A stretch of DNA of 28,431 nt from a virus: the IMG/VR virus record IMGVR_UViG_3300044643_000567, positions 1 through 28,431 of that record. One strand, 5' to 3'. The translations under genes and the position numbers were made by a program. Below the pieces are notes generated by a model. That model was not told where the DNA came from. It worked only from the letters and a program-made list of their open reading frames with translations, and did no database searches. How positions within the stretch are numbered: the first letter of the stretch is position 1; every line of letters begins with the position of its first letter. This document shows, one piece after another, positions 4,404 to 21,934 of this stretch.

Positions 4404-5279
4404 TTAGCAGGGTGATAAGGTATATCCTAATAAATTCATTCCTTCAATAACTTTGTTTGCAAAATATTGAGCGTCTTCATTTTCGTTAACATTATCTATT
4501 AGTCTTGAATAAGGATTATTAGATAGTCCCCAAATTCCTCCATAGACACCTGCTCCTGTATATACTGCACTCATAAGCTGTTGATACCACGTACCCCTTA
4601 TATCACCATTAAAAGTAACTCTATATGTAATAGATCTCACATTAGAATTCAATTGAGCATTTGCAAAAGTAACATCACTCATATAATCCATTGATTTTTC
4701 ACTGTTTATAGTCCAATTGGGGCCAGCTGTATAAAGTGGATTTGCCTCATTGGCAAATGTCATGTTTACAACTTTAGTTGCACCAGCTGGAATACTATCA
4801 CCTAACCATCTTACAAATCGTTCATCCTCCCTGGATGTAACTTTAACTCTTTGATCATATAACGCACTATTATTATCATAAAATGGAAGTAAACAAGGCT
4901 TAAGTATAGTGTTAGCCATAGTTTGTAATTGTGGAAGTACTTGATTCATACTACCTGAACTATCAAAGAATATATTTAAAGCAGTGCCTGAATCAAGAAC
5001 TGCTGGTGGGCTAGTTGATATCTGGGTTGTATTAAATGTAAACTGACAACTTAATGGAATTAAATCCTGCCATCTAGGAAGTCTATTATTAGGATAGGAT
5101 GCAAGTGGTTGTGCATTGGTATCAATAAACCAACTATCCTTTGCTCCAACAGATCCTTCTCTTTGGCCTTCAGTTGCTGTAATTAGCCCTCTATCACTGT
5201 TGGGAATAGCTTGCCCCTTAGGAGGAAATACGCTATTCGCATCAGTAACAGTGGCTACATAATTGGTTTGTTTAGTCAT
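4404..5279 (-). CDS. Virion-associated protein with von Willebrand A-like MIDAS motif
   Basis: The 291-aa protein contains ALNIFFDSSGSMN (residues 100-112). A hydrophobic strand followed by DxSxS (Asp106, Ser108, Ser110) is the metal-ion-dependent adhesion site of von Willebrand A domains, which bind ligands through a divalent metal. A second hydrophobic strand with MTFANEAN (173-180) is placed where such domains carry another site residue, but has Asn where Asp is common. The start overlaps the end of the collagen-like fibre gene by 8 bases, so the two are probably co-translated. Placement among tail genes implies a virion adhesin or assembly role; this is an inference. Confidence 0.7.
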   Translation of the reverse strand: MTKQTNYVATVTDANSVFPPKGQAIPNSDRGLITATEGQREGSVGAKDSWFIDTNAQPLASYPNNRLPRWQDLIPLSCQFTFNTTQISTSPPAVLDSGTALNIFFDSSGSMNQVLPQLQTMANTILKPCLLPFYDNNSALYDQRVKVTSREDERFVRWLGDSIPAGATKVVNMTFANEANPLYTAGPNWTINSEKSMDYMSDVTFANAQLNSNVRSITYRVTFNGDIRGTWYQQLMSAVYTGAGVYGGIWGLSNNPYSRLIDNVNENEDAQYFANKVIEGMNLLGYTLSPC

Positions 5280-7239
5280 TGCTTTCTAACTTTTTAACTC
5301 TAGCTTCTAATTCTTGTACAGCTTTTATCAAGATACCAACTGCAGAGTTTGTGTCCATTCTGTCTTGTTTGATAGTTGACATCTCTACAGGAGTATCATC
5401 TGCAATAAATCCATAATGTATTGTATCAGGATCGTTCTTGTATGCAAAACTAACAATGGTTGTACGAGATAATACATCTAAAGCATCTCCTTCATATGTT
5501 TCAATATTAGTCTTAGCAGCTCGTAAAGATGTCTGATAAAATGCTCCTGCATTTAATTGATCTGTATTTGAAACGTATACGCCTGATAATGCACTTGCAC
5601 TATTTCCTGTACCATTTCCTACTAATACATATCCTGAATTACCAGTACTTGGAGTGATAGTTGTAAATCCAGTACCTGGAGGACCTTGAGGTATTGTAAA
5701 ATTAAATACTGCTGCAGAACTTGATCCACTGTTTGAAACACTTGCAGGTGTACCTGCAGGACCTGTAGAAGTTGTACCAACAGCAATTGTAGCAGCAGCA
5801 CCTGAAGGACCTGGAGCTCCAGGACCACCTGTAGGACCTAGACCACCTGTTGGACCTGTTGGGCCTGTTGGACCTGTAGGACCTACGCCTCCTGGAGCAC
5901 CTGGAGTACCAGCAGGACCAGAAGATCCAGATGAACCAGATGTACCACTAGTACCACTAGTACCTGCAGAACCTGATGTTCCATTAGCTCCAGCAATTCC
6001 TGAAGTTCCTGATGTACCTGTACTTCCTGATGTACCACTTAAACCTGAGGTACCAGAAGTTCCTGAAGTACCTGTTCCATTTATACCTGAAGTACCTGAG
6101 GTTCCTGTAAGTCCTGCTGTACCTGAAGTACCAGCAATACCAGAAGTACCAGACGTACCTTGAAGTCCAGATGTACCACTAGTTCCAGCAGTTCCACTAA
6201 TACCATTTGTACCAGTAACTCCTGATGTTCCACTGGTTCCAGAAGTACCATTTACTCCTGATGTACCATTGATTGCAGCAATACCATTTAAGTTAACTGT
6301 CCATGGTTCGTATGTTCCTGAACCTGTAGTAGTTACAACGTCTACAGCCATGTCACCACATAGTGGATCATAACTTACAACAGTACCAATCATGGTATTT
6401 CCCACACCATAACTTAATATAACTTCTTGACCAATTGTATATGCTAATCCTGGACCAACTTCAAATATTGCTAGACCTGTACCAATAGTTAATGGTGTAG
6501 GTGACATTGTAGCATACCTGTCTCCAGACAAACCACTTGTTCCAGATGTTCCAGCTGTTCCTGTATCTCCATCACCTCCATTTATACCAGATGTTCCTGA
6601 CAAACCTGATGTACCTGATGTTCCAGATGTCCCTGTTGTTCCAGAAGTTCCTGATGTGCCATTGGATCCATCTGTACCTGATGAACCATCAGTGCCTGAT
6701 ATACCATTAGATCCTGACGTTGCAGAGGTACCAGCTGTAGCTGAGGTTCCTGAAGATGCAGCTGTACCAGAGGATCCTGATGATCCTGAGGATCCTGAAG
6801 ACCCATTGGTTCCTGACGAGCCAGAAGTACCTGCAGCAGCAGATACACCTGATGATCCACTAGATCCAGAAGTTCCTCCTGTACCTGCAGATCCTCTATC
6901 TCCATTTGCACCATTTGTGCCATCTCTACCATTGGTACCATTTCTACCACTAGAACCATTAGTTCCAGAGGTTCCATTTGTACCATTGTATTGTTGTATA
7001 TCGCCAATGGCAGTATCCATCTGCTCAAGAGCAGTGGTTAAATCTGTAAGGTTTTGTACTCCTGTGTGTGGAAGGTTAGGACCTACGTAAGTTACATCAT
7101 TAGAACTAACTCCACAGTTTGTGTTGGTATTACAGCCACATTGACCAGAGCAAGTAGATACTCCACAGCATCCACAACCTTGTTGTGAGTTGGTGTATAT
7201 CACTTCATTGTAACATGGCATTCCTGGTAAACAAGACAT
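5272..7239 (-). CDS. Collagen-like tail fibre with C-terminal S74 intramolecular chaperone
   Basis: The 655-aa protein starts with a Cys-rich segment (residues 3-42). A short helix (62-82) follows, then Gly-x-y repeats dominated by GTSGTSG (about 85-238). A beta-like module (240-322) interrupts the repeats, which resume at about 325-480 and end in GPTGPTGPTG. After a further beta region, residues 571-655 match the Peptidase_S74 chaperone family: SLRAAKTNI resembles the usual self-cleavage start with Ser571, HYGFIADD (608-615) is the GFIAQE-like motif, and a terminal coiled coil VQELEARVKKLE ends the chain. Such domains trimerise fibres and are then cut off. This is a trimeric host-recognition or tail fibre; the receptor is unknown. 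Confidence 0.92.
   Translation of the reverse strand: MSCLPGMPCYNEVIYTNSQQGCGCCGVSTCSGQCGCNTNTNCGVSSNDVTYVGPNLPHTGVQNLTDLTTALEQMDTAIGDIQQYNGTNGTSGTNGSSGRNGTNGRDGTNGANGDRGSAGTGGTSGSSGSSGVSAAAGTSGSSGTNGSSGSSGSSGSSGTAASSGTSATAGTSATSGSNGISGTDGSSGTDGSNGTSGTSGTTGTSGTSGTSGLSGTSGINGGDGDTGTAGTSGTSGLSGDRYATMSPTPLTIGTGLAIFEVGPGLAYTIGQEVILSYGVGNTMIGTVVSYDPLCGDMAVDVVTTTGSGTYEPWTVNLNGIAAINGTSGVNGTSGTSGTSGVTGTNGISGTAGTSGTSGLQGTSGTSGIAGTSGTAGLTGTSGTSGINGTGTSGTSGTSGLSGTSGSTGTSGTSGIAGANGTSGSAGTSGTSGTSGSSGSSGPAGTPGAPGGVGPTGPTGPTGPTGGLGPTGGPGAPGPSGAAATIAVGTTSTGPAGTPASVSNSGSSSAAVFNFTIPQGPPGTGFTTITPSTGNSGYVLVGNGTGNSASALSGVYVSNTDQLNAGAFYQTSLRAAKTNIETYEGDALDVLSRTTIVSFAYKNDPDTIHYGFIADDTPVEMSTIKQDRMDTNSAVGILIKAVQELEARVKKLESND
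5800..6987 (-). repeat. Collagen-like coding repeats (Gly-x-y)
   Basis: Two blocks of degenerate 9-base units (6526-6987 and 5800-6267) encode Gly-Thr-Ser type triplets; a non-repetitive module lies between them. The low-complexity DNA could support expansion and contraction by slippage or recombination. Confidence 0.85.
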
Positions 7240-8179: not shown

Positions 8180-8183
8180 GCTG

Positions 8184-8232
8184 TTAAAAAATAATGCCAG
8201 AGGACAGAGATTATCCTCTTACCCTCTGGCAT
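8184..8232 (-). terminator. Strong intrinsic terminator after the 379-aa structural gene
   Basis: A perfect 10-bp stem (ATGCCAGAGG 8194-8203 with CCTCTGGCAT 8223-8232) encloses a 19-base loop. On the minus strand it is followed by TATTTTTTAA. It separates the highly codon-biased 379-aa gene from the fibre cluster, so expression of the two groups can differ. Confidence 0.8.
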
Positions 8233-8254
8233 AGGTTATATGACTCGCTTTTTA

Positions 8255-9415: not shown

Positions 9416-10147
9416 TTACTCGTTTGTTTTAATTCTGTATATGGAACTTTCTACAGCAGATTGGTTCTCAGTATACATTGCAAGGTTTTGAACTGTCAAA
9501 TCTAAAAGCTCATCTTCTAGATATAATTCTAATTCGCAATCTTGATTAAAGGAAGGTTGACCATCAAGCATTATATATCCAGTCTTATTGATGTAAACTG
9601 GATATCGCATGTATGAAACGTATATATTAGTTGGTGTGAATGTACCATCTGTAAATACACTTATCTCATCAGTAGACAAAAAATTAAAAGATTCTTGATA
9701 TTCGAACGATGGTTTGTAATGATCATTGTTTAATAGCAATGATAGATCACCATGTTTTGAAAGATCTCTATTAATCCAAATCTTTCTACCTGTACATCTA
9801 CCTTTGCTAGCTAAGAAATAGCTATCAACATAGAACATGTAGGTTGGATTTAAACTATTGATGTTCGCTTTCCATTGATTTAGTTGGGCATTTTCTAGAG
9901 TTAGTGGTAACTCACCATCATTGTAATTTACCACTAACCTTTGAAGGTCTTCATATCGTTTCTTAAACGAATCAAAACCAAGACCAGAAGTAGTGCTAAA
10001 ACCATCTACCTTCTGTTTAATCAACTTGATCTGTGCCTCATTGAGTGCAAGGATCTTGTCTTCTAATGCAATTTGTTGATGCTCGTTAGTAGATAGTTTA
10101 TTTAGTTTCTGATCAATTTTATATAATAAACTATCTACTGGAATCAT
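9416..10147 (-). CDS. Probable head-tail connector or virion protein, family unknown
   Basis: The 243-aa protein starts with a long helical/coiled region (residues about 5-50, with KIDQKLNKLS and KILALNEAQIKLIKQK). A mostly beta region follows, and it ends in a helix with LAMYTENQSAVESSIYRIKTNE-like character, which is common at the C-terminus of adaptor-type proteins. The start overlaps the upstream 322-aa gene by 4 bases (ATGA), showing translational coupling. Its position two genes after the capsid gene suggests an adaptor, ring or tail completion protein. No motif proves this. Confidence 0.65.
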   Translation of the reverse strand: MIPVDSLLYKIDQKLNKLSTNEHQQIALEDKILALNEAQIKLIKQKVDGFSTTSGLGFDSFKKRYEDLQRLVVNYNDGELPLTLENAQLNQWKANINSLNPTYMFYVDSYFLASKGRCTGRKIWINRDLSKHGDLSLLLNNDHYKPSFEYQESFNFLSTDEISVFTDGTFTPTNIYVSYMRYPVYINKTGYIMLDGQPSFNQDCELELYLEDELLDLTVQNLAMYTENQSAVESSIYRIKTNE

Positions 10148-11112
10148 ACTGTTGCTAATTTTTTACCTTTTAACTTTTGTTCTAAGATTAGTAAATCATC
10201 TTGGTGATCTTCATCTGCAAGGTATTTAACTAACTCTTCTTCATCAATTGCCACTTCTAACTCTCCCATGTAAACTTTACCATTAGGTTTTACACGATAG
10301 ATTGAGTGTGTAATCGCTTGCTTAACTAAATCTTTAATTGCAAGCAATTGATCTTTCATATCTGCGAATCTATTGAAGACTTCAATTGGAGATAGACCTT
10401 GGTATTTTCCCTCTTTGAATTCAGTTTGTTTCAACAAGTTATCCACTTGGTTGTAAACTACTTCTTCTTTAGTTTCTTCTGTTACAGGTAAGCCCAGCAT
10501 TCTTGCTACTTTTTTCTTTTTATCAGGAGACATAGAATCAAACTTGACAATAGCCTTGTTGATTATTTGTTTCTTTTTGTAAAGAACTGCATTTTCAATC
10601 TCATCATCTACAACATAGAATTGTGTATCTGCTGGATATTCACCACGTTCCCAAGCTTGATATGAGCTTGCAATTGTTGGATGAACTCGTAACCATGAGA
10701 ACGCTAGCTCTTGCATTGGATTAGTGAAATCAAAAAAGTTATCACCATCTAATAATTTAACAGCTTGTACGTGCATCATGTCATCAATACCTTGAGATAA
10801 TCCATAGTTCCAAAACTTAGAACGAGGACCAAGATCAACATCACCTAATGCATACTCTAAACGCTTGCGTAACTCTGCTACACGTTCCATTTCTAATTCA
10901 CGTTCTGTAGGATCTGCAATACGTCTGATATATGCAGCATCAGGATTTAATCCTGTACGATACTGACCATCCATTTCCTTGTAAGGATATTTAAAAACAC
11001 CTGTACCTGGAACTCGTGTCAAACCTTCACGTGAAAGTCCACCTTGCATTGTCTGCAACTGTGAGTTGTTGTAATCTTTCTTAATAGTAGAAATTTTGCC
11101 TGTCTTACCCAT
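10144..11112 (-). CDS. Virion-assembly protein following the major capsid gene
   Basis: The 322-aa product is charged and mostly helical after about residue 65. It contains YIRRIADPTERELEMERV (about 61-78) and a C-terminal acidic helix region. It has no membrane segment or catalytic motif that I can see. It starts with an AAACTACAT leader directly before ATG, and follows the structured intergenic region behind the capsid gene. Position suggests a head completion, internal head or cargo-like protein; this remains an inference. Confidence 0.65.
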   Translation of the reverse strand: MGKTGKISTIKKDYNNSQLQTMQGGLSREGLTRVPGTGVFKYPYKEMDGQYRTGLNPDAAYIRRIADPTERELEMERVAELRKRLEYALGDVDLGPRSKFWNYGLSQGIDDMMHVQAVKLLDGDNFFDFTNPMQELAFSWLRVHPTIASSYQAWERGEYPADTQFYVVDDEIENAVLYKKKQIINKAIVKFDSMSPDKKKKVARMLGLPVTEETKEEVVYNQVDNLLKQTEFKEGKYQGLSPIEVFNRFADMKDQLLAIKDLVKQAITHSIYRVKPNGKVYMGELEVAIDEEELVKYLADEDHQDDLLILEQKLKGKKLATV

Positions 11113-11117
11113 ATGTA

Positions 11118-11134
11118 GTTTAATTTAATAATTG
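11118..11134 (-). promoter_or_regulatory. Leader element shared with the major capsid gene
   Basis: The 17-base string GTTTAATTTAATAATTG (plus strand) occurs here, 5 bases upstream of this gene's ATG, and again at 12860-12876, 10 bases upstream of the capsid ATG. On the mRNA it is A-rich (CAATTATTAAATTAAAC). It fits an A-rich ribosome-recruiting leader typical of Bacteroidota. Confidence 0.45.
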
Positions 11135-11142
11135 GTTTTTAG

Positions 11143-11285
11143 CAGAGTGCTATCCATCGAAGGAATAGCGACCAGGGACACCCCAATCCAAGCACTCTGT
11201 ATCAAGAACATCCCCCCTCATAGGAGGGGAGGGAGAGGGGGGAGTTCTTGTGCTTATCGATTGATAAGCGTGGGACAAAGTCCCA
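11143..11285 (-). ncRNA. Four-hairpin structured RNA region downstream of the major capsid gene
   Basis: The 177-base gap after the capsid stop is almost fully foldable. In minus-strand order there are four elements. The first is TGGGAC/GTCCCA with a 3-base loop (11285-11271). The second is GCTTATC/GATAAGC with a 4-base loop (11269-11252). The third is a 7-bp CAAGAAC/GTTCTTG stem continued by an 8-bp CCCCCCTC/GAGGGGGG stem (11250-11203). The last is a 9-bp CAGAGTGCT/AGCACTCTG stem (11199-11143) that can enclose a smaller bulged hairpin. No T-tract follows any stem on the minus strand. An mRNA-stabilising 3' UTR, an attenuator or an independent RNA are all possible. Confidence 0.6.
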
Positions 11286-11289
11286 TGTA

Positions 11290-12849
11290 TTAGAATTGAG
11301 GGATTTCTTCAATCAAGACTGTGCGAGACAAGTCTTCAATGAACACATCACAACGATCCTTCATCCAGATTTCGTATCCTGGGAATTTGTTCGCAGAACT
11401 CATACCTTGAGACTTAGCAAAGCCTAAGTGGTGACGAGTACCATCGATATAACCCCAAGTCATAGAAGGTGCACCCTTCATACGAACCTCACGAATGTTA
11501 TTAACCATAGATCCATCAGACATTGGAGAAACGTCAAACACCATAAATACTGGAGTTGACTTCTTGTTTTGTCCAAATTCTAAGTTAGTTTGAGGAAGGT
11601 CTAATTCTTTTAAGTGAATTAACTCAACACGACCAGTCTCACGAGTTACCATTGCATCGAATGCAAAGTTGTAAGTGATGTGTTGTCCTTCTCCTTGCAT
11701 GTAACGATTACCTGAATCAGCCATAAAAGTTAAACCTGAATTCAAAGCATCAGTCTTAAGTGCTTGTTGGAACACGTCGAAGCCAGCTTCGTTAGTGTAC
11801 ATTTTAACACGACGATCTTTAACATCCACACGACGATAGAATAAATCACCAAATACTGAACGAATCAAGTTAGCAGTGAATTCTCCACGATTGTATTGAA
11901 CCAAGTTACCATTGTTACGCATACGATGGTATACACCAGCTGAAGTACGCTTCAATTCTTGCTTAGAACCATTAGATTTAACAGTACCTGGACGAGCCCA
12001 GATCATACGCTTAACCTTTAATTCTAACATAGACTTACGCATCCAGAACTCAACGAATGGCTCCCACTTAACATCATTACGAGTTAAAGGAAGTTGGTTA
12101 CGACGTTGTGGAGCATATACTAAGATATCTAAAGCTGAACCATCAGCGTTAACCAACATCTTGTCATCAGCCCATTCAGTGATTTTGTGCTCATATCCAT
12201 ATGCAGAACTCAATGATTCAAACATAGTGATTTGCTCACCTAAACGTGGCAATCCTAATAAATCTTGGTCAAACTCACCAATTGCAGCATCAACCAATTC
12301 TAACTCTAGGCCAACTTGCAAGAACACTGGAGAAACGAAATCAACCTGAGGGTTGTCAGTTACTAAAGTGAAAGTGTAAAGATAACCCATGTTCCATGGT
12401 TGAGGATCTTTGATCACATACCAACGAGGACCATACTGACGAGTACCTACAGAAACGATTGCGTTCTTAGAGAATTCGTTAGTGTCAATGATCACTTGAA
12501 ATTCTTGACCATCGATACCTGGTTTGTCACCTACGATATTCAAGGTGGAATCAGGGATGTCAATGATTTTAGGGAATTTGTAAGGGACTTGTACTTGCCA
12601 CTTCCAAGCATCACTGTTGTTGTCGATGTAGTAAGGAGTTGACTTGTTGATCATGTCCAAGAAGTCATTGCTGTACAACGAACTTTGAGTGTACAAACTA
12701 ATGATTTTCTTGTCATAGTCTGCTGGCTCAGTCGAGTGAAAGCTTTCCAAGTGGTTAGAGTCTGTCAGTTTACCTACTGCACGTTTGTCCATAGACGCTA
12801 CACGAGCATAAGTAAAGCCAGTTAAACCAGGGATAGTTTGAATTGCCAT
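11290..12849 (-). CDS. Major capsid protein (probable)
   Basis: The 519-aa product sits directly after the probable scaffold, in the usual portal-scaffold-capsid order, and is of suitable length for an HK97-fold capsid protein. It is a mixed alpha/beta soluble protein with no catalytic motif. Conserved-looking aromatic stretches include NMGYLYTF (about residues 153-160) and a Gly-rich TWGYIDGTRHHLG segment near the C-terminus. Codon choice is strongly biased (CGT for Arg, many C-ending codons), as expected for the most abundant virion protein. Its leader is A-rich and shares a 17-base element with the next gene. The structured RNA follows 4 bases after the stop. Confidence 0.85.
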   Translation of the reverse strand: MAIQTIPGLTGFTYARVASMDKRAVGKLTDSNHLESFHSTEPADYDKKIISLYTQSSLYSNDFLDMINKSTPYYIDNNSDAWKWQVQVPYKFPKIIDIPDSTLNIVGDKPGIDGQEFQVIIDTNEFSKNAIVSVGTRQYGPRWYVIKDPQPWNMGYLYTFTLVTDNPQVDFVSPVFLQVGLELELVDAAIGEFDQDLLGLPRLGEQITMFESLSSAYGYEHKITEWADDKMLVNADGSALDILVYAPQRRNQLPLTRNDVKWEPFVEFWMRKSMLELKVKRMIWARPGTVKSNGSKQELKRTSAGVYHRMRNNGNLVQYNRGEFTANLIRSVFGDLFYRRVDVKDRRVKMYTNEAGFDVFQQALKTDALNSGLTFMADSGNRYMQGEGQHITYNFAFDAMVTRETGRVELIHLKELDLPQTNLEFGQNKKSTPVFMVFDVSPMSDGSMVNNIREVRMKGAPSMTWGYIDGTRHHLGFAKSQGMSSANKFPGYEIWMKDRCDVFIEDLSRTVLIEEIPQF

Positions 12850-14268: not shown

Positions 14269-16854
14269 CTACTTACTTTTCTTTGCTCTATTACTTGCAT
14301 TGACATTAGCAATCTTCAAGTCGTTGTCTTGATTTTTTAAGTCTACTTGCATTTTTTCACGCTCTATTTGCATCTTATCGTAGTGTTGTCTATCTCTACC
14401 ACGAATTTCTTCTAGCTTAGTTTCGTAGTCTTTACTAGCTCTAGATTCTTCTGCATTTAGTTTACTGATTTCTAATACATCTGGCACACCACTGGTGTCC
14501 ATATCAGATAGTGGGCCAGACTTAGATTCTGCTGCAATCAATGCAATTTCTTTCTTATTGACACGATCAAGTTCAGCATTGTAGTTATCATTAGCAATTT
14601 TCTCTTGTTGCATCTGTTGAGCTTGTTGCAACGCAGCTTCAGATTGTTGTTGCTGTTGCTCCATTTGCTGTTGTTGTTGTTGCATCTTCTGATCTTCAAG
14701 TTGTTGCTGACGCTCTTTAAGAGTCTTGAACACTTTCTTCATCTGACGTACAGAGTTAGTGCTGTATAGCTCAATGATATCATGTAATGAACCACCATTT
14801 TGTAGAACAGCTTGAGACAATCCACGAATCTCGTTGAACATCTTCTGATCTTCTGGACGATTAGTTAAGAATACTTTAAGATCTCTAAACTTAAGATCTG
14901 TTCCATTCACTTGTACAAATGCTGATTCTCCTTCAGATGTAATGTATGAAACAGTAGATTCTGGTTTAGCACTCTCAATATATAATGATGCATCAATGAT
15001 CGCTTGATATAGCTGACCTAATACATACTCGTGTGCCACGAATAATGGCTCTGTCTGCGAGTAAGATTGTGTAATGGCAGTATTTGTACCTGTAGCAGTT
15101 TCAGAGGCTGAGATGGAGCCTAAACGTTGTTTAGACATACCAATAAGTTCCCAACACTCGTTCTTTAACTGCATAGCTAAGTTGTAACGAGATTGGATCT
15201 CCTGCGTACGTGTAAGATCAATATCCCTAAACTGATTGAATGAGCTTGGAGCTTTTAAATTTTCAGGGCTGTCATCAATAAACATTACACCACGATTACG
15301 TGCTTCCATCTCCCAAATATCAAGAGCATCTTGTGCATCTCCATCTTTAGGAATAGGTATATGACGTATTGACGTTAAGTACACTTTACCAACTTCTTTC
15401 TCTAACAACTTGTATAATTGATTCATACAAACGTTATAAAGAACCTGGAATGGTTTCATTAAATCTACAAGAGACTTAGCTTCTGTATTCTTGATCTCAT
15501 GTACCAGTCCAATTATAGGGCAGTAGTTTAATAACTTGAATGGTTTGATGTGATAGATATCTGGTCCAATCTTGATACCTTGATACCATTGATTGATCCA
15601 TCCCCACTCTAATGACTGCTGTGTAGGAATCGTACCACTCTTGTAGTTCTCATCAACAAGCATCGATTGCTCATTACCCATCTCATCTAAATAGATGAGC
15701 TTACCAATCTTCTTCTTAGAGATCCAGTAGGCACGTACAACTACATACTTGTATCCAAATGAAGACACATTTGATGTTAAGCCTAGGAAGTCCTGTAAGC
15801 CATCGTCGTTGTTCTTCATCTCAGACTCGATAATCATACGTGTCTGAAGTACTAATGGATCATATGTATCGTATTGTACAGAGTCAATACCATCACCAGC
15901 GTTAGGATTACCAAGGTTAGATTCACGAACATTGATAAGCCCATAGTCTTGTAAAGATGATCTTAAGTGATCAATTTCATCTTTAGTAAGATCAGGGATT
16001 GATTCAATAATCTCAGAGAGTTCCATAACTTGCACAGTACCAGCAGCATACGCACCTTGGGCACGTCCTGTTGGATCTGATACATATTTACGATCTGGTG
16101 TAGATAAGAACCAAGTATTTTTAGGATTAGCTACTTCAATGTTATATCCTAACTTAGAGTTATCCTCATAGATGTGATAGAACTCACGAGCAGAAATTAA
16201 CATATCACGAAATGCATCTTCAGACTTTTCCTTTAATGTAAAATCTGCCTTCTGACAAGTAAGAATATGATTAGCCCATTTCTCTGCTATAGATGTATAT
16301 GAATCAAGTTCATCTTGAACTTCCTGCATTGTCATCTCTTGAAGTTCTTCATCACCTAACTCAACGCCTTGTAAATTAGCTTTTTCTACAAGTTTAGTTT
16401 TAACTTGGTTAATTACAAACTCTTGAAGAATACCTGTCTTAAACTCTAACTCTTCTGCTTTACTGTCATCATCAAATGCCTTAACACGAAATGCATCAGG
16501 ACGTTTAGAGATCTCACCAACTAACTCATTTAAAGGAGTGGTGATGATAGAATACATCTTTACATAAGCTGGTAATTCAAGATCAGCTGTCAACATATCT
16601 GTAAAGCTTTTTACTTGAGGAGCTGATTGATAAAAGTCCTCCATACGAAGGATACCTTTTACAAGATCGTAGTTCTTAACAAATGTATCTCTGTTCTTTA
16701 CGTATTCAGCGTAGGACTTATTTGCAAAATAGTCCATTGTATTCTTGATCCAACTCTCATCCATCTTCTCCTTCTCAGTCTTGAACTGATCTGGGAAGAT
16801 GTTTAGATACGCATATCTAATGGTTGCATCTTTAGTATATCTAATAATTGCCAT
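14269..16854 (-). CDS. Portal protein
   Basis: The 861-aa product lies between the large terminase and the scaffold and has portal-like size and composition. A mixed N-terminal region contains aromatic beta stretches (NTWFLSTPDRKYV near 225-237). A long helical stem/crown region follows, then a striking Gln-rich tract (about residues 713-752) and a charged coiled-coil C-terminus ending in Lys/Ser residues. Portals form the dodecameric DNA gate at one capsid vertex and bind the terminase. Gln-rich C-terminal extensions occur in several large podovirus portals. The start overlaps the terminase stop by 1 base, showing coupling. Identification is by context and architecture. Confidence 0.85.
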   Translation of the reverse strand: MAIIRYTKDATIRYAYLNIFPDQFKTEKEKMDESWIKNTMDYFANKSYAEYVKNRDTFVKNYDLVKGILRMEDFYQSAPQVKSFTDMLTADLELPAYVKMYSIITTPLNELVGEISKRPDAFRVKAFDDDSKAEELEFKTGILQEFVINQVKTKLVEKANLQGVELGDEELQEMTMQEVQDELDSYTSIAEKWANHILTCQKADFTLKEKSEDAFRDMLISAREFYHIYEDNSKLGYNIEVANPKNTWFLSTPDRKYVSDPTGRAQGAYAAGTVQVMELSEIIESIPDLTKDEIDHLRSSLQDYGLINVRESNLGNPNAGDGIDSVQYDTYDPLVLQTRMIIESEMKNNDDGLQDFLGLTSNVSSFGYKYVVVRAYWISKKKIGKLIYLDEMGNEQSMLVDENYKSGTIPTQQSLEWGWINQWYQGIKIGPDIYHIKPFKLLNYCPIIGLVHEIKNTEAKSLVDLMKPFQVLYNVCMNQLYKLLEKEVGKVYLTSIRHIPIPKDGDAQDALDIWEMEARNRGVMFIDDSPENLKAPSSFNQFRDIDLTRTQEIQSRYNLAMQLKNECWELIGMSKQRLGSISASETATGTNTAITQSYSQTEPLFVAHEYVLGQLYQAIIDASLYIESAKPESTVSYITSEGESAFVQVNGTDLKFRDLKVFLTNRPEDQKMFNEIRGLSQAVLQNGGSLHDIIELYSTNSVRQMKKVFKTLKERQQQLEDQKMQQQQQQMEQQQQQSEAALQQAQQMQQEKIANDNYNAELDRVNKKEIALIAAESKSGPLSDMDTSGVPDVLEISKLNAEESRASKDYETKLEEIRGRDRQHYDKMQIEREKMQVDLKNQDNDLKIANVNASNRAKKSK

Positions 16855-18878
16855 TATGTAAACAGTTTTTGTTTAGGTCTATTATTGAAAAGCCCTCTAG
16901 ACTCTCCAAACAGTGTATTTTTCTTACTTTTTGAATGCATAGACATTACTCTAACATCCCCTGAAGCCCCTACCCTTCCTATGATAGGATCCAATTTCAT
17001 TGCTAATGCTACAGCTAACTCAGCTGCAATGATTCTATCGAAGTTACCATCTTCATTATACTGAATCATTTCTTCTAAAAGGACAGGGTCAAAAATCTTC
17101 ACCATACCTTTTACTTCTTTTATTATCTCCCCTTCTTCGTTCTTCTCTATAGTTAATGTTTCCTCTGAATATTTTTTGAGACAACCATGTAGGAAGTCTC
17201 TAATCTTCTCAGAAGATCTGTGTATACCATAATCACGTCTCACTGTAGTGTTGGGAACTACTTCCTTTAACCACTCAGGTTGTTTCTCTAGATAGTGAGC
17301 ATCATTCTTAGAGATCATGTAATCAATAAACGACATCTCATCATTCTCACAAAGAGCTCTCGCATTGTAGTATTTAATCAAGAGTCTAGCTTGTTCTTCC
17401 CATGTTTCCTTTTTATCAGGACGAGCACAGTACGAAGCTACGAACATATCTTGATATTTCTCATTCGTAATAGAGTGCATACGTTTATATATGTATACAG
17501 CTCCTAATGATGTTGAATATGCAGCTTTACCTTGGCGATATGGATCGACTCCTGCTACATATAACCCATAAGGAGGTGCCTCTACAGGAAACTCATATAT
17601 AATTATAGGAGCATCCTTCATATCTGTATTCTTTAGAGGGAAGTTGGTGATGGGCAATTTGTCTGTAAACTCATGCTTTATACCATCACCATCATCATAT
17701 AGCACAACTGGTGTACCAGTACGTTCATTAGCTAGAAGTCTGGACTTTTGTCGTTTTGCTCCCTCTATATCAAATATGTTACTGTCTTCATTCAAGAATA
17801 TATCATCCACTTCTTGTGGGTAGTACATCTTCTCTTTTAAATAAGCAAGTCTATCTCCAGCTTTCTTCAGCCTTTCGAGATTGTCATTTGTTATCTTTGT
17901 GGCAAGTTCTTCATCACTCACCATCATCTTTACATTGTGTAGATCGTTCTTCTTAGGCAACTCTAAATATGCACCAAGAGAACTCTCATACTTAGCCTCC
18001 ATTCTAAACTTATGTGAGATGAACAGTCCATGTATACGTTGTTCATCTTTGGAGTTGTTGTATTCTAAGAAGTTGTAGTTACCTACGTCAAACATCAAGG
18101 ACTTAGCGTCCATGAATTTTTTCATATCCCCACCAGTGCCAGTAAGAATTGGTGAACAGCCCCAGCCAAAGGGTGTTGTGAAGCCAGGGACAGCTGCTTG
18201 AAAGCCTCGTAGGAAAGATCCTTTACCAATTTCATCTATAATTAATCTTCTGGGTTTTGTACCAGCGATGGCTTCTTCGTTATTACCCTCGTCTAAGTTA
18301 CGTATTAATATCTGTGAGAAGGGGATACGTTCTCCTCCTCTTGTCTTGATTCCTAATGTTACTTGGTTCTTCCAGTTATCCTCTACACGTTGCCATTTCC
18401 AAGCCTCTGGTAAGTAGTTAAGTCCCTTGTCAATTTTGTCTGTAATCAGCTTAATATCAGCTGCATTCAGACCAGCAATAATGTTCTGTGAGTTCTCATC
18501 AAATGTAGCCCCATGGGACACATAAGAAGCTTCTAGTACAGACTTAGCAAAACGTCTGATTCCAAGGATAACTAAACCCTTTTTCTCTTTCTGTGCTCTA
18601 TCTATCTCAGAACTAACTATCCACTCGTTATCACGAAGGGATGGATTAGCATATTTCTGTGCAATTCTACCATAATCATCAATAACATCAATCTCTGTAT
18701 GCCATGCATTGAGATGCCAATATAGGAATGGGTTAATGTAGGTGTCACCCATCATACAACCATTCTTGCAAAGCTCCTCGTGAAATGCATAAAAAGCATC
18801 ATACTCAGCACTGTCAGGTGTGGGTAGACGCTTTTGATTCATCAGCCAATCTTTGTAATCAATCTTATGTAGTTTCAT
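16854..18878 (-). CDS. terL: Terminase large subunit (ATPase-nuclease DNA packaging motor)
   Basis: The 674-aa protein has a Walker A-like GIRRFAKS (residues 106-113, with Ala in place of the usual last Gly), Walker B RLIIDEI with the catalytic Asp-Glu at 215-216, and a coupling motif TGTGG (246-250). The C-terminal half carries an RNase H-like nuclease signature: GVDPY with Asp445, an acidic CENDE cluster (510-514) and FDRI with Asp614. It drives ATP-powered packaging and cuts concatemers. The gene overlaps the 113-aa gene upstream by 14 bases and the portal by 1 base. This is the most secure assignment in the window. Confidence 0.95.
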   Translation of the reverse strand: MKLHKIDYKDWLMNQKRLPTPDSAEYDAFYAFHEELCKNGCMMGDTYINPFLYWHLNAWHTEIDVIDDYGRIAQKYANPSLRDNEWIVSSEIDRAQKEKKGLVILGIRRFAKSVLEASYVSHGATFDENSQNIIAGLNAADIKLITDKIDKGLNYLPEAWKWQRVEDNWKNQVTLGIKTRGGERIPFSQILIRNLDEGNNEEAIAGTKPRRLIIDEIGKGSFLRGFQAAVPGFTTPFGWGCSPILTGTGGDMKKFMDAKSLMFDVGNYNFLEYNNSKDEQRIHGLFISHKFRMEAKYESSLGAYLELPKKNDLHNVKMMVSDEELATKITNDNLERLKKAGDRLAYLKEKMYYPQEVDDIFLNEDSNIFDIEGAKRQKSRLLANERTGTPVVLYDDGDGIKHEFTDKLPITNFPLKNTDMKDAPIIIYEFPVEAPPYGLYVAGVDPYRQGKAAYSTSLGAVYIYKRMHSITNEKYQDMFVASYCARPDKKETWEEQARLLIKYYNARALCENDEMSFIDYMISKNDAHYLEKQPEWLKEVVPNTTVRRDYGIHRSSEKIRDFLHGCLKKYSEETLTIEKNEEGEIIKEVKGMVKIFDPVLLEEMIQYNEDGNFDRIIAAELAVALAMKLDPIIGRVGASGDVRVMSMHSKSKKNTLFGESRGLFNNRPKQKLFT

Positions 18879-21548: not shown

Positions 21549-21551
21549 CAC

Positions 21552-21576
21552 AAGGGGGACTTTGTCCCCTTTTTTT
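21552..21576 (+). terminator. Strong intrinsic terminator of the 132-aa gene
   Basis: AAGGGGGAC and GTCCCCTTT form a 9-bp stem (one G-U pair) with loop TTT, followed by an uninterrupted T-run to 21576. It begins 4 bases after the stop codon. Its core GGGACTTTGTCCC is identical to the first hairpin behind the capsid gene on the opposite strand. Confidence 0.85.
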
Positions 21577-21635
21577 ATATATATAAGGATGATATGATGT
21601 AGTCATAGAGTCCTTGTGTATGTATGTATATAGTT

Positions 21636-21697
21636 CTAATGTTATTTTATCATTCACTATTAGAGACAAACTAACTTTGATGGTAAAATAGCATTAG
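21636..21697 (+). ncRNA. Long 18-bp hairpin, possible small RNA
   Basis: CTAATGTTATTTTATCAT (21636-21653) pairs along its full length with ATGGTAAAATAGCATTAG (21680-21697). As plus-strand RNA this gives 18 consecutive pairs, two of them G-U, with a 26-base loop and a following TTTTATATATAT tract. The wobble pairs favour a plus-strand RNA over a DNA palindrome. It lies in a 386-base stretch with no gene. It could be a small RNA, a processing site or a large terminator. Confidence 0.5.
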
Positions 21698-21804
21698 TTT
21701 TATATATATCTGTGTGTAAAAATGGTGCAGTGTAACCCATTAGGGTATACATTATCCTTTTTATCACGAGTGTAATTGTGCTGAACACTGAAAATATATA
21801 GCAT

Positions 21805-21899
21805 TAAATGTATTGTCTCTGAACGAAACAACAGAACCATCATATTGTCTGATGTATCAGAATGGCTTATGGAATGTTACTAAAGAGACAATACATTTA
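21805..21899. ncRNA. Candidate non-coding RNA closed by a perfect 16-bp stem
   Basis: TAAATGTATTGTCTCT (21805-21820) and AGAGACAATACATTTA (21884-21899) are perfect inverted repeats enclosing 63 bases that contain smaller stems, such as CTGAT/ATCAG near 21850-21860. No reading frame explains the region. The perfect stem works in either orientation; DNA-level use, such as a protein-binding inverted repeat, is the alternative. Confidence 0.5.
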
Positions 21900-21934
21900 T
21901 TAATTATTACTATCACCTTTTAACTAATAGATAT

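Follow-up and report, generated by a model that had tools for sequence, protein, structure and literature searches.

A covarying RNA element behind the major capsid gene of a crAss-related phage

Behind the major capsid gene of a phage known from a virus record of 28,431 bases – the window, analysed here at its full length – lies a gap of 177 nt that holds two structures, P2 and P3, which comparison of relatives shows to be under selection as base-paired RNA structures of the coding strand. On this comparative evidence P2–P3 is a real RNA element, and one that is absent from Rfam. The genomes compared show both structures to be single-copy and P3 to occur only behind this capsid gene. We think there is about an even chance that the gap is a conserved 3′-end module of the major capsid cistron, placed inside a long late operon; such a module probably determines the way in which the capsid message ends with respect to the genes that follow.

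The capsid gap and its hairpins

The late genes of the window all lie on the minus strand (Table 1), where further structural genes follow the one at 10144-11112; because the gap sits behind a minus-strand capsid gene, the relevant strand is the minus strand. Terminase kin are found among crAss-like phages and phages of Cellulophaga, Flavobacterium and Leptolyngbya. No close DNA relatives were found among named phages, and the capsid relatives that named phages do possess (22–25% identity) are followed by short gaps without P2 or P3. A structural gene at 5272-7239 of the window carries long GTSGTSG/collagen-like repeats.

Table 1. Genes of the late operon and elements of the capsid gap, in window coordinates.
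Feature	Position	Strand	Description
Terminase	16854-18878	minus	Late operon
Portal	14269-16854	minus	Late operon
Unknown protein	between portal and major capsid protein	minus	
Major capsid protein gene	11290..12849	minus	ORF; PHROG 11589 major head protein, E=6e-34
P1a	11271..11285	minus	6-bp hairpin TGGGAC-TTT-GTCCCA
P1b	11252..11269	minus	7-bp hairpin GCTTATC-AATC-GATAAGC
P2	11203..11250	minus	Composite hairpin: outer stem CAAGAAC/GTTCTTG (7 bp), inner stem TCCCCCCTC/GAGGGGGGA (9 bp)
P3	11143..11199	minus	Three-way junction; basal stem P3a CAGAGTGCT/AGCACTCTG
P3b	11170..11188	minus	First inner hairpin; variable stem, strong covariation; conserved bulged G after 3′ strand
P3c	11153..11164	minus	Second inner hairpin; conserved hexaloop UUCGAU at 11161-11156
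Leader of next gene	11113..11142	minus	Unstructured; AAACCAA + AACTACAT just before ATG
Next gene of late operon	10144..11112	minus	ORF; PHROG 16383, unknown function

An earlier note on this DNA had described four structures in 11143-11285, with stems of 6, 7, 7+8 and 9 bp. All four are present on the minus, coding strand, and two need redrawing: the third, P2, has 7+9 pairs, one bulged U and a 15-nt C/U-rich loop, while the fourth, P3, is a real element but not the simple hairpin it was taken for, being a three-way junction whose basal stem of 7–9 bp holds two inner hairpins. Folding against shuffled sequence, a check proposed in that note, gave a strongly positive result: the minus strand of this stretch has a minimum free energy of -69.1 kcal/mol, whereas dinucleotide shuffles lie at -42.6 +/- 3.7, none of 200 folding as well (z -7.1), and its plus strand reaches z -5.0. 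Nine gaps of the window were tested, and on the minus strand none gave a stronger z than this gap taken whole, at -6.0.

In the same nine-gap comparison the plus-strand gap 21549-21934 gave z -8.1. In this non-coding region a terminator-like hairpin with a T-tail, GGGGGACTTTGTCCCCTTTTTTT, precedes nested long inverted repeats; the core of that hairpin, GGGACTTTGTCCC, is identical to P1a. A second late-operon gap with a significant fold lies at 8180-8254 (z about -4 on both strands).

The hairpins nearest the capsid gene, P1a and P1b, are clade-specific. P1a persists with other stem letters in L158, L203, L275 and L176; P1b keeps its AATC loop, with both stem sides changed in L158 (GCTTTC/GAAAGC) and L203 (GCTTGCT/AGCAGGC). 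In nine other relatives (L008, L042, L050, L068, L071, L122, L130, L160 and L177) a different P1-type hairpin, in the first ~60 nt past the capsid stop, stands in for them; its loop ACCnnUAAGAWC is kept, its stems covary, and it is possibly a second small RNA motif. At the other end of the gap, the unpaired leader after P3 is assigned to the next gene, because its AAACCAA part also precedes other genes of the window and because the HNH-type inserts described below carry the leader and not P3.

Covariation and conserved sequence

A capsid-based search of viral contigs supplied relatives L001-L080 (93–99% capsid identity) and L084-L162, and a genome bin supplied L163; motif matches included, about 160 distinct gaps (163) were read. 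Capsid proteins are nearly identical among close relatives, yet their gap sequences differ widely. Gap length in the first 80 relatives is 158–208 nt, save for inserts of HNH type (about 500 nt) or tRNA (L054). A coding function is unlikely: indels fall in all frames, and lengths vary between 158 and about 208 nt. At least one hairpin is present in the gap of every relative whose capsid protein is 39–100% identical.

A covariance model, R1, built from 39 sequences of P2 plus P3, matches the capsid gap in almost all close relatives. In an R1 alignment of 62 sequences, counting cells that stem from related sequences and are not independent events, 93.5% of cells are paired and 31 of 33 pairs show two-sided changes (0 of 500 shuffles match this); the covariation score is 0.53, compared with 0.21 for shuffles, and slid structures are only 45–52% paired. 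Sequences held out of the R1 build behave alike (92.3% paired, 31 of 33 pairs, score 0.62 against 0.22), as does a plain MAFFT alignment that was not fitted to the structure (90.9% paired, 27 of 34 pairs, 0.41 against 0.20). Because column shuffles take no account of relatedness, and alignments made with R1 are biased towards the structure, we added a structure-free ranking of all column pairs by corrected mutual information: its top 13 are either pairs of the structure or the pair of columns 79-104, which extends P3b. Covariation of the kind that marks a conserved structured RNA is thus found beyond both column-shuffle and slid controls. G-U cells outnumber A-C cells (99:34, 60:11 and 69:41), as expected of an RNA of the coding strand. 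No covariation was seen outside the nested structure, which led us to reject a pseudoknot that would pair the UUCGAU loop with some other segment.

The compensatory changes for which the earlier note had suggested looking in homologues are therefore strongly evident, in several alignments, and energy and covariation together bear out its remark that there is more structure here than a terminator needs; both of the computable conditions that it had set for refutation fail.

Pairing is only part of what P3 conserves. In its basal stem (CAGA.../...UCUG) the AGA/UCU part is almost invariant; the bulged G is found in 56 of 62 sequences; in the UUCGAU-type hexaloop of P3c the first U is kept in 61, the second in all 62 and the C in 59; and column 69 is G in 62 of 62, flanked by A at columns 68 and 70 in 61. 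P3 starts 3–10 nt past P2 in most members, with a fixed A before it. A passive hairpin needs none of this sequence conservation, and the retention of the loop, bulged G and stem base speaks for a protein or enzyme that recognises P3.

In L001, the window's closest relative, both P1 and P3 equal those of the window letter for letter, while P2 differs in sequence and keeps its shape (L001:4594-4703 against window 11142-11250), with CAAGAAG.../...CTTCTTG in place of CAAGAAC.../...GTTCTTG. The contrast suggests either very fast compensated change or an exchange of P2.

A single-copy element and its neighbours

Rfam returned no family at the gathering threshold, and at E<=10 its matches in the window were all at chance level. 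No self-cleaving ribozyme of Rfam matched, the best being drz-agam-1, which scored 16.4 bits where the threshold is 37; the sub-threshold HDV-like ribozyme and microRNA matches are put down to chance. Literature searches found no description of the P2–P3 element.

Within genomes the element is confined to one place. R1 matches 12 of 14 near-full-length records, each with one strong match, in the capsid gap. Taking its E-values as rough, the capsid-gap copy is the only one at E<1e-6 in all 12 positive records, and at E<0.001 there is a single copy in 11 of the 12, always in the capsid gap; other matches are weak (E at least 0.0066). In these 12 records the element thus does not behave as dispersed repeat hairpins of the REP/BIME type, which are present in many copies per genome, spread over different gaps. 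A scan of viral contigs with the P3 pattern found 120 stretches, 110 of them adjoining the capsid gene, the next gene or both; the remaining 10 are unrelated chance matches. Beyond chance, neither R1 nor the pattern scan put P3 at any other genomic position or in any other context.

The gap has also been entered by other elements. Genes resembling HNH-type endonucleases (C..C...C..CH in translation) have inserted into it repeatedly, mostly right after P3 (L006, L009, L021, L049, L135 and L145) and, in L131, between the capsid gene and P2; they bring their own AAACCAA/ACTACAT-like leader. With most on the next-gene side of P3 and one on the capsid side, the points of insertion favour neither gene as the owner of the module. 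Behind the hairpins of the same gap are tRNA genes in L054 (4728-4802) and L116 (4646-4716), a tRNA-Met and one with unassigned anticodon, and L054 has a second P3-like hairpin in tandem. A further hairpin, AGTGCC..CTAAG/CTTAGTG..GCACT, occurs in the gaps of L116 (4478-4517), L119 and L100; its place with respect to P2 and P3 varies, as if it were mobile.

How the capsid message may end

P2 has the GC-rich hairpin of an intrinsic terminator, with a purine-rich 5′ flank and a pyrimidine-rich 3′ flank, and a consensus scan gave three terminator-like sites, two that overlap in P2 and a third in P3. That no T-tract follows any stem, as the earlier note had it, holds in part: the G6 arm of P2 runs into ATGTTCTT (5 T in 8), a weak and interrupted tract that the scan nonetheless scored as terminator-like and that is unlike the T-tailed hairpin just after 21548 in the same window. 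Tails of at least five T occur in 0 of 50 distinct gaps in the 92.6–94% band; sister clades have T-tails. In L085-L088, whose capsid proteins are 39–41% identical, a single terminator-like hairpin with a T-tail, AAGAAAGGGGGG...CCCCCTTTCTATTTTT, stands in the gap, and the L094/L112 group has a T-tailed terminator-like one there, GAGGGGAGTTTTATT or GAGGGGCACTTTTT. In the clade of the window, by contrast, the 3′ flank reads UCUUCUC or UGUUCUUG, lacks a U-run and pairs with the 5′ flank. Given the T-tailed counterparts and the paired flank, P2 is best read as a terminator-type hairpin that has grown longer and less U-tailed.

The closest documented arrangement is the gene 10 terminator of T7. In that phage most transcripts, though not all, end at a terminator directly behind capsid gene 10, and genes 11-12 rely on those that read through it (PMC5592923). 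Like Tphi, the hairpin element of the window stands directly behind a major capsid gene within a late operon that continues on the same strand, upstream of further head and tail genes needed in smaller amounts (PMC5592923). Unlike Tphi, which is one terminator, it is made up of P1a and P1b, a hairpin that lacks a clean U-tract, and a three-way junction that covaries.

Comparison of the relatives speaks for an mRNA 3′-end or partial-termination module, because P2 is T-tailed and terminator-like in sister clades. P2, with its C-rich and G-rich arms and pyrimidine-rich 3′ flank, would act as a weak intrinsic terminator, as an exonuclease-resistant 3′ end after cleavage, or as both. Most late transcripts would then end as stable capsid mRNA, and a fraction would continue into the next head genes. 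P3 would be carried on the read-through RNA, where it most likely holds or marks the break, either by giving the downstream mRNA a structured 5′ end or by offering a host or phage protein a site through its UUCGAU loop and bulged G. The fast-changing P1a and P1b would serve as additional 3′ stabilisers. As the U-tract of P2 is short and interrupted in the clade of the window, termination there could be weak or lost. A counterpoint is that a P2 which simply terminated would leave little reason for keeping P3 so strictly.

Several other explanations must be set beside the 3′-end module. P2–P3 could be a decayed or imperfect intrinsic terminator with a second, stabilising hairpin, P3 being bound by nothing. 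The terminator-like P2, in the scan and in sister clades, would fit, as would the persistence of a hairpin throughout the relatives; but P3 keeps sequence besides its pairing (UUC of the loop in nearly all of 62, columns 68–70, the bulged G), and we regard this account as unlikely. P3 might instead be a processing signal, RNase III acting on P2 or a tRNA-type enzyme on P3 so as to cut between the two; the capsid mRNA would then be protected at its 3′ end, and the downstream mRNA at its 5′ end. In T7-type operons polycistronic phage mRNA is processed by RNase III at intercistronic hairpins; here too stable hairpins stand on both sides of the intergenic break, although P2, at 16 bp, is shorter than typical T7 sites. 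The 7-bp P3a, stacked by a short arm with a UUYRAU (UUCRA-like) loop, recalls an acceptor stem and T-arm; the arm of L097 reads GTGG-TTCAAAT-CCAC. The mostly short P2–P3 spacer with its fixed A, and the real tRNA or tRNA-like genes in the gaps of L054 and L116, point the same way. Against this, ARAGORN and Rfam found no tRNA or tRNA-like match for P3, leaving a tRNA origin suggestive by eye and unsupported by either; the loop has six bases rather than seven, its closing pair is usually C-G, the third arm is variable and there is no CCA end. Such processing seems to us improbable.

Feedback is another candidate, with P3 as an operator bound by the capsid or another late protein and controlling capsid or the next gene. 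A loop, bulged G and stem base conserved amid a context otherwise free to vary, and the strict linkage of P3 to the capsid gene, are what an operator would predict; yet no binding partner can be named, and the next gene keeps its own leader, which, rather than P3, stays adjacent to it when HNH genes intervene. We therefore consider an operator distinctly improbable. Least probable, and in our judgement very unlikely, is an independent small RNA or a DNA-level element such as a packaging or recombination site: the plus strand folds well too, as expected of inverted repeats, but the consensus scan found no convincing promoter in the gap, and the excess of G-U over A-C cells points to an RNA of the coding strand.

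A broader proposal, tentative and somewhat doubtful, is that P3 may be the founding member of a new class of phage RNA, a three-way junction recognised by a factor of phage or host, that sets the end of the capsid mRNA or lets capsid level feed back on expression. If this is true, crAss-related phages, in which the excess of capsid protein over its operon neighbours is largely unstudied, would regulate capsid dosage through a cis-acting RNA. A single-copy, compensated, capsid-linked RNA element would offer a direct handle on that question, and the alignment and covariance model would define an RNA family that is new and uncatalogued and is open to reporter tests even while the phage is not in culture.
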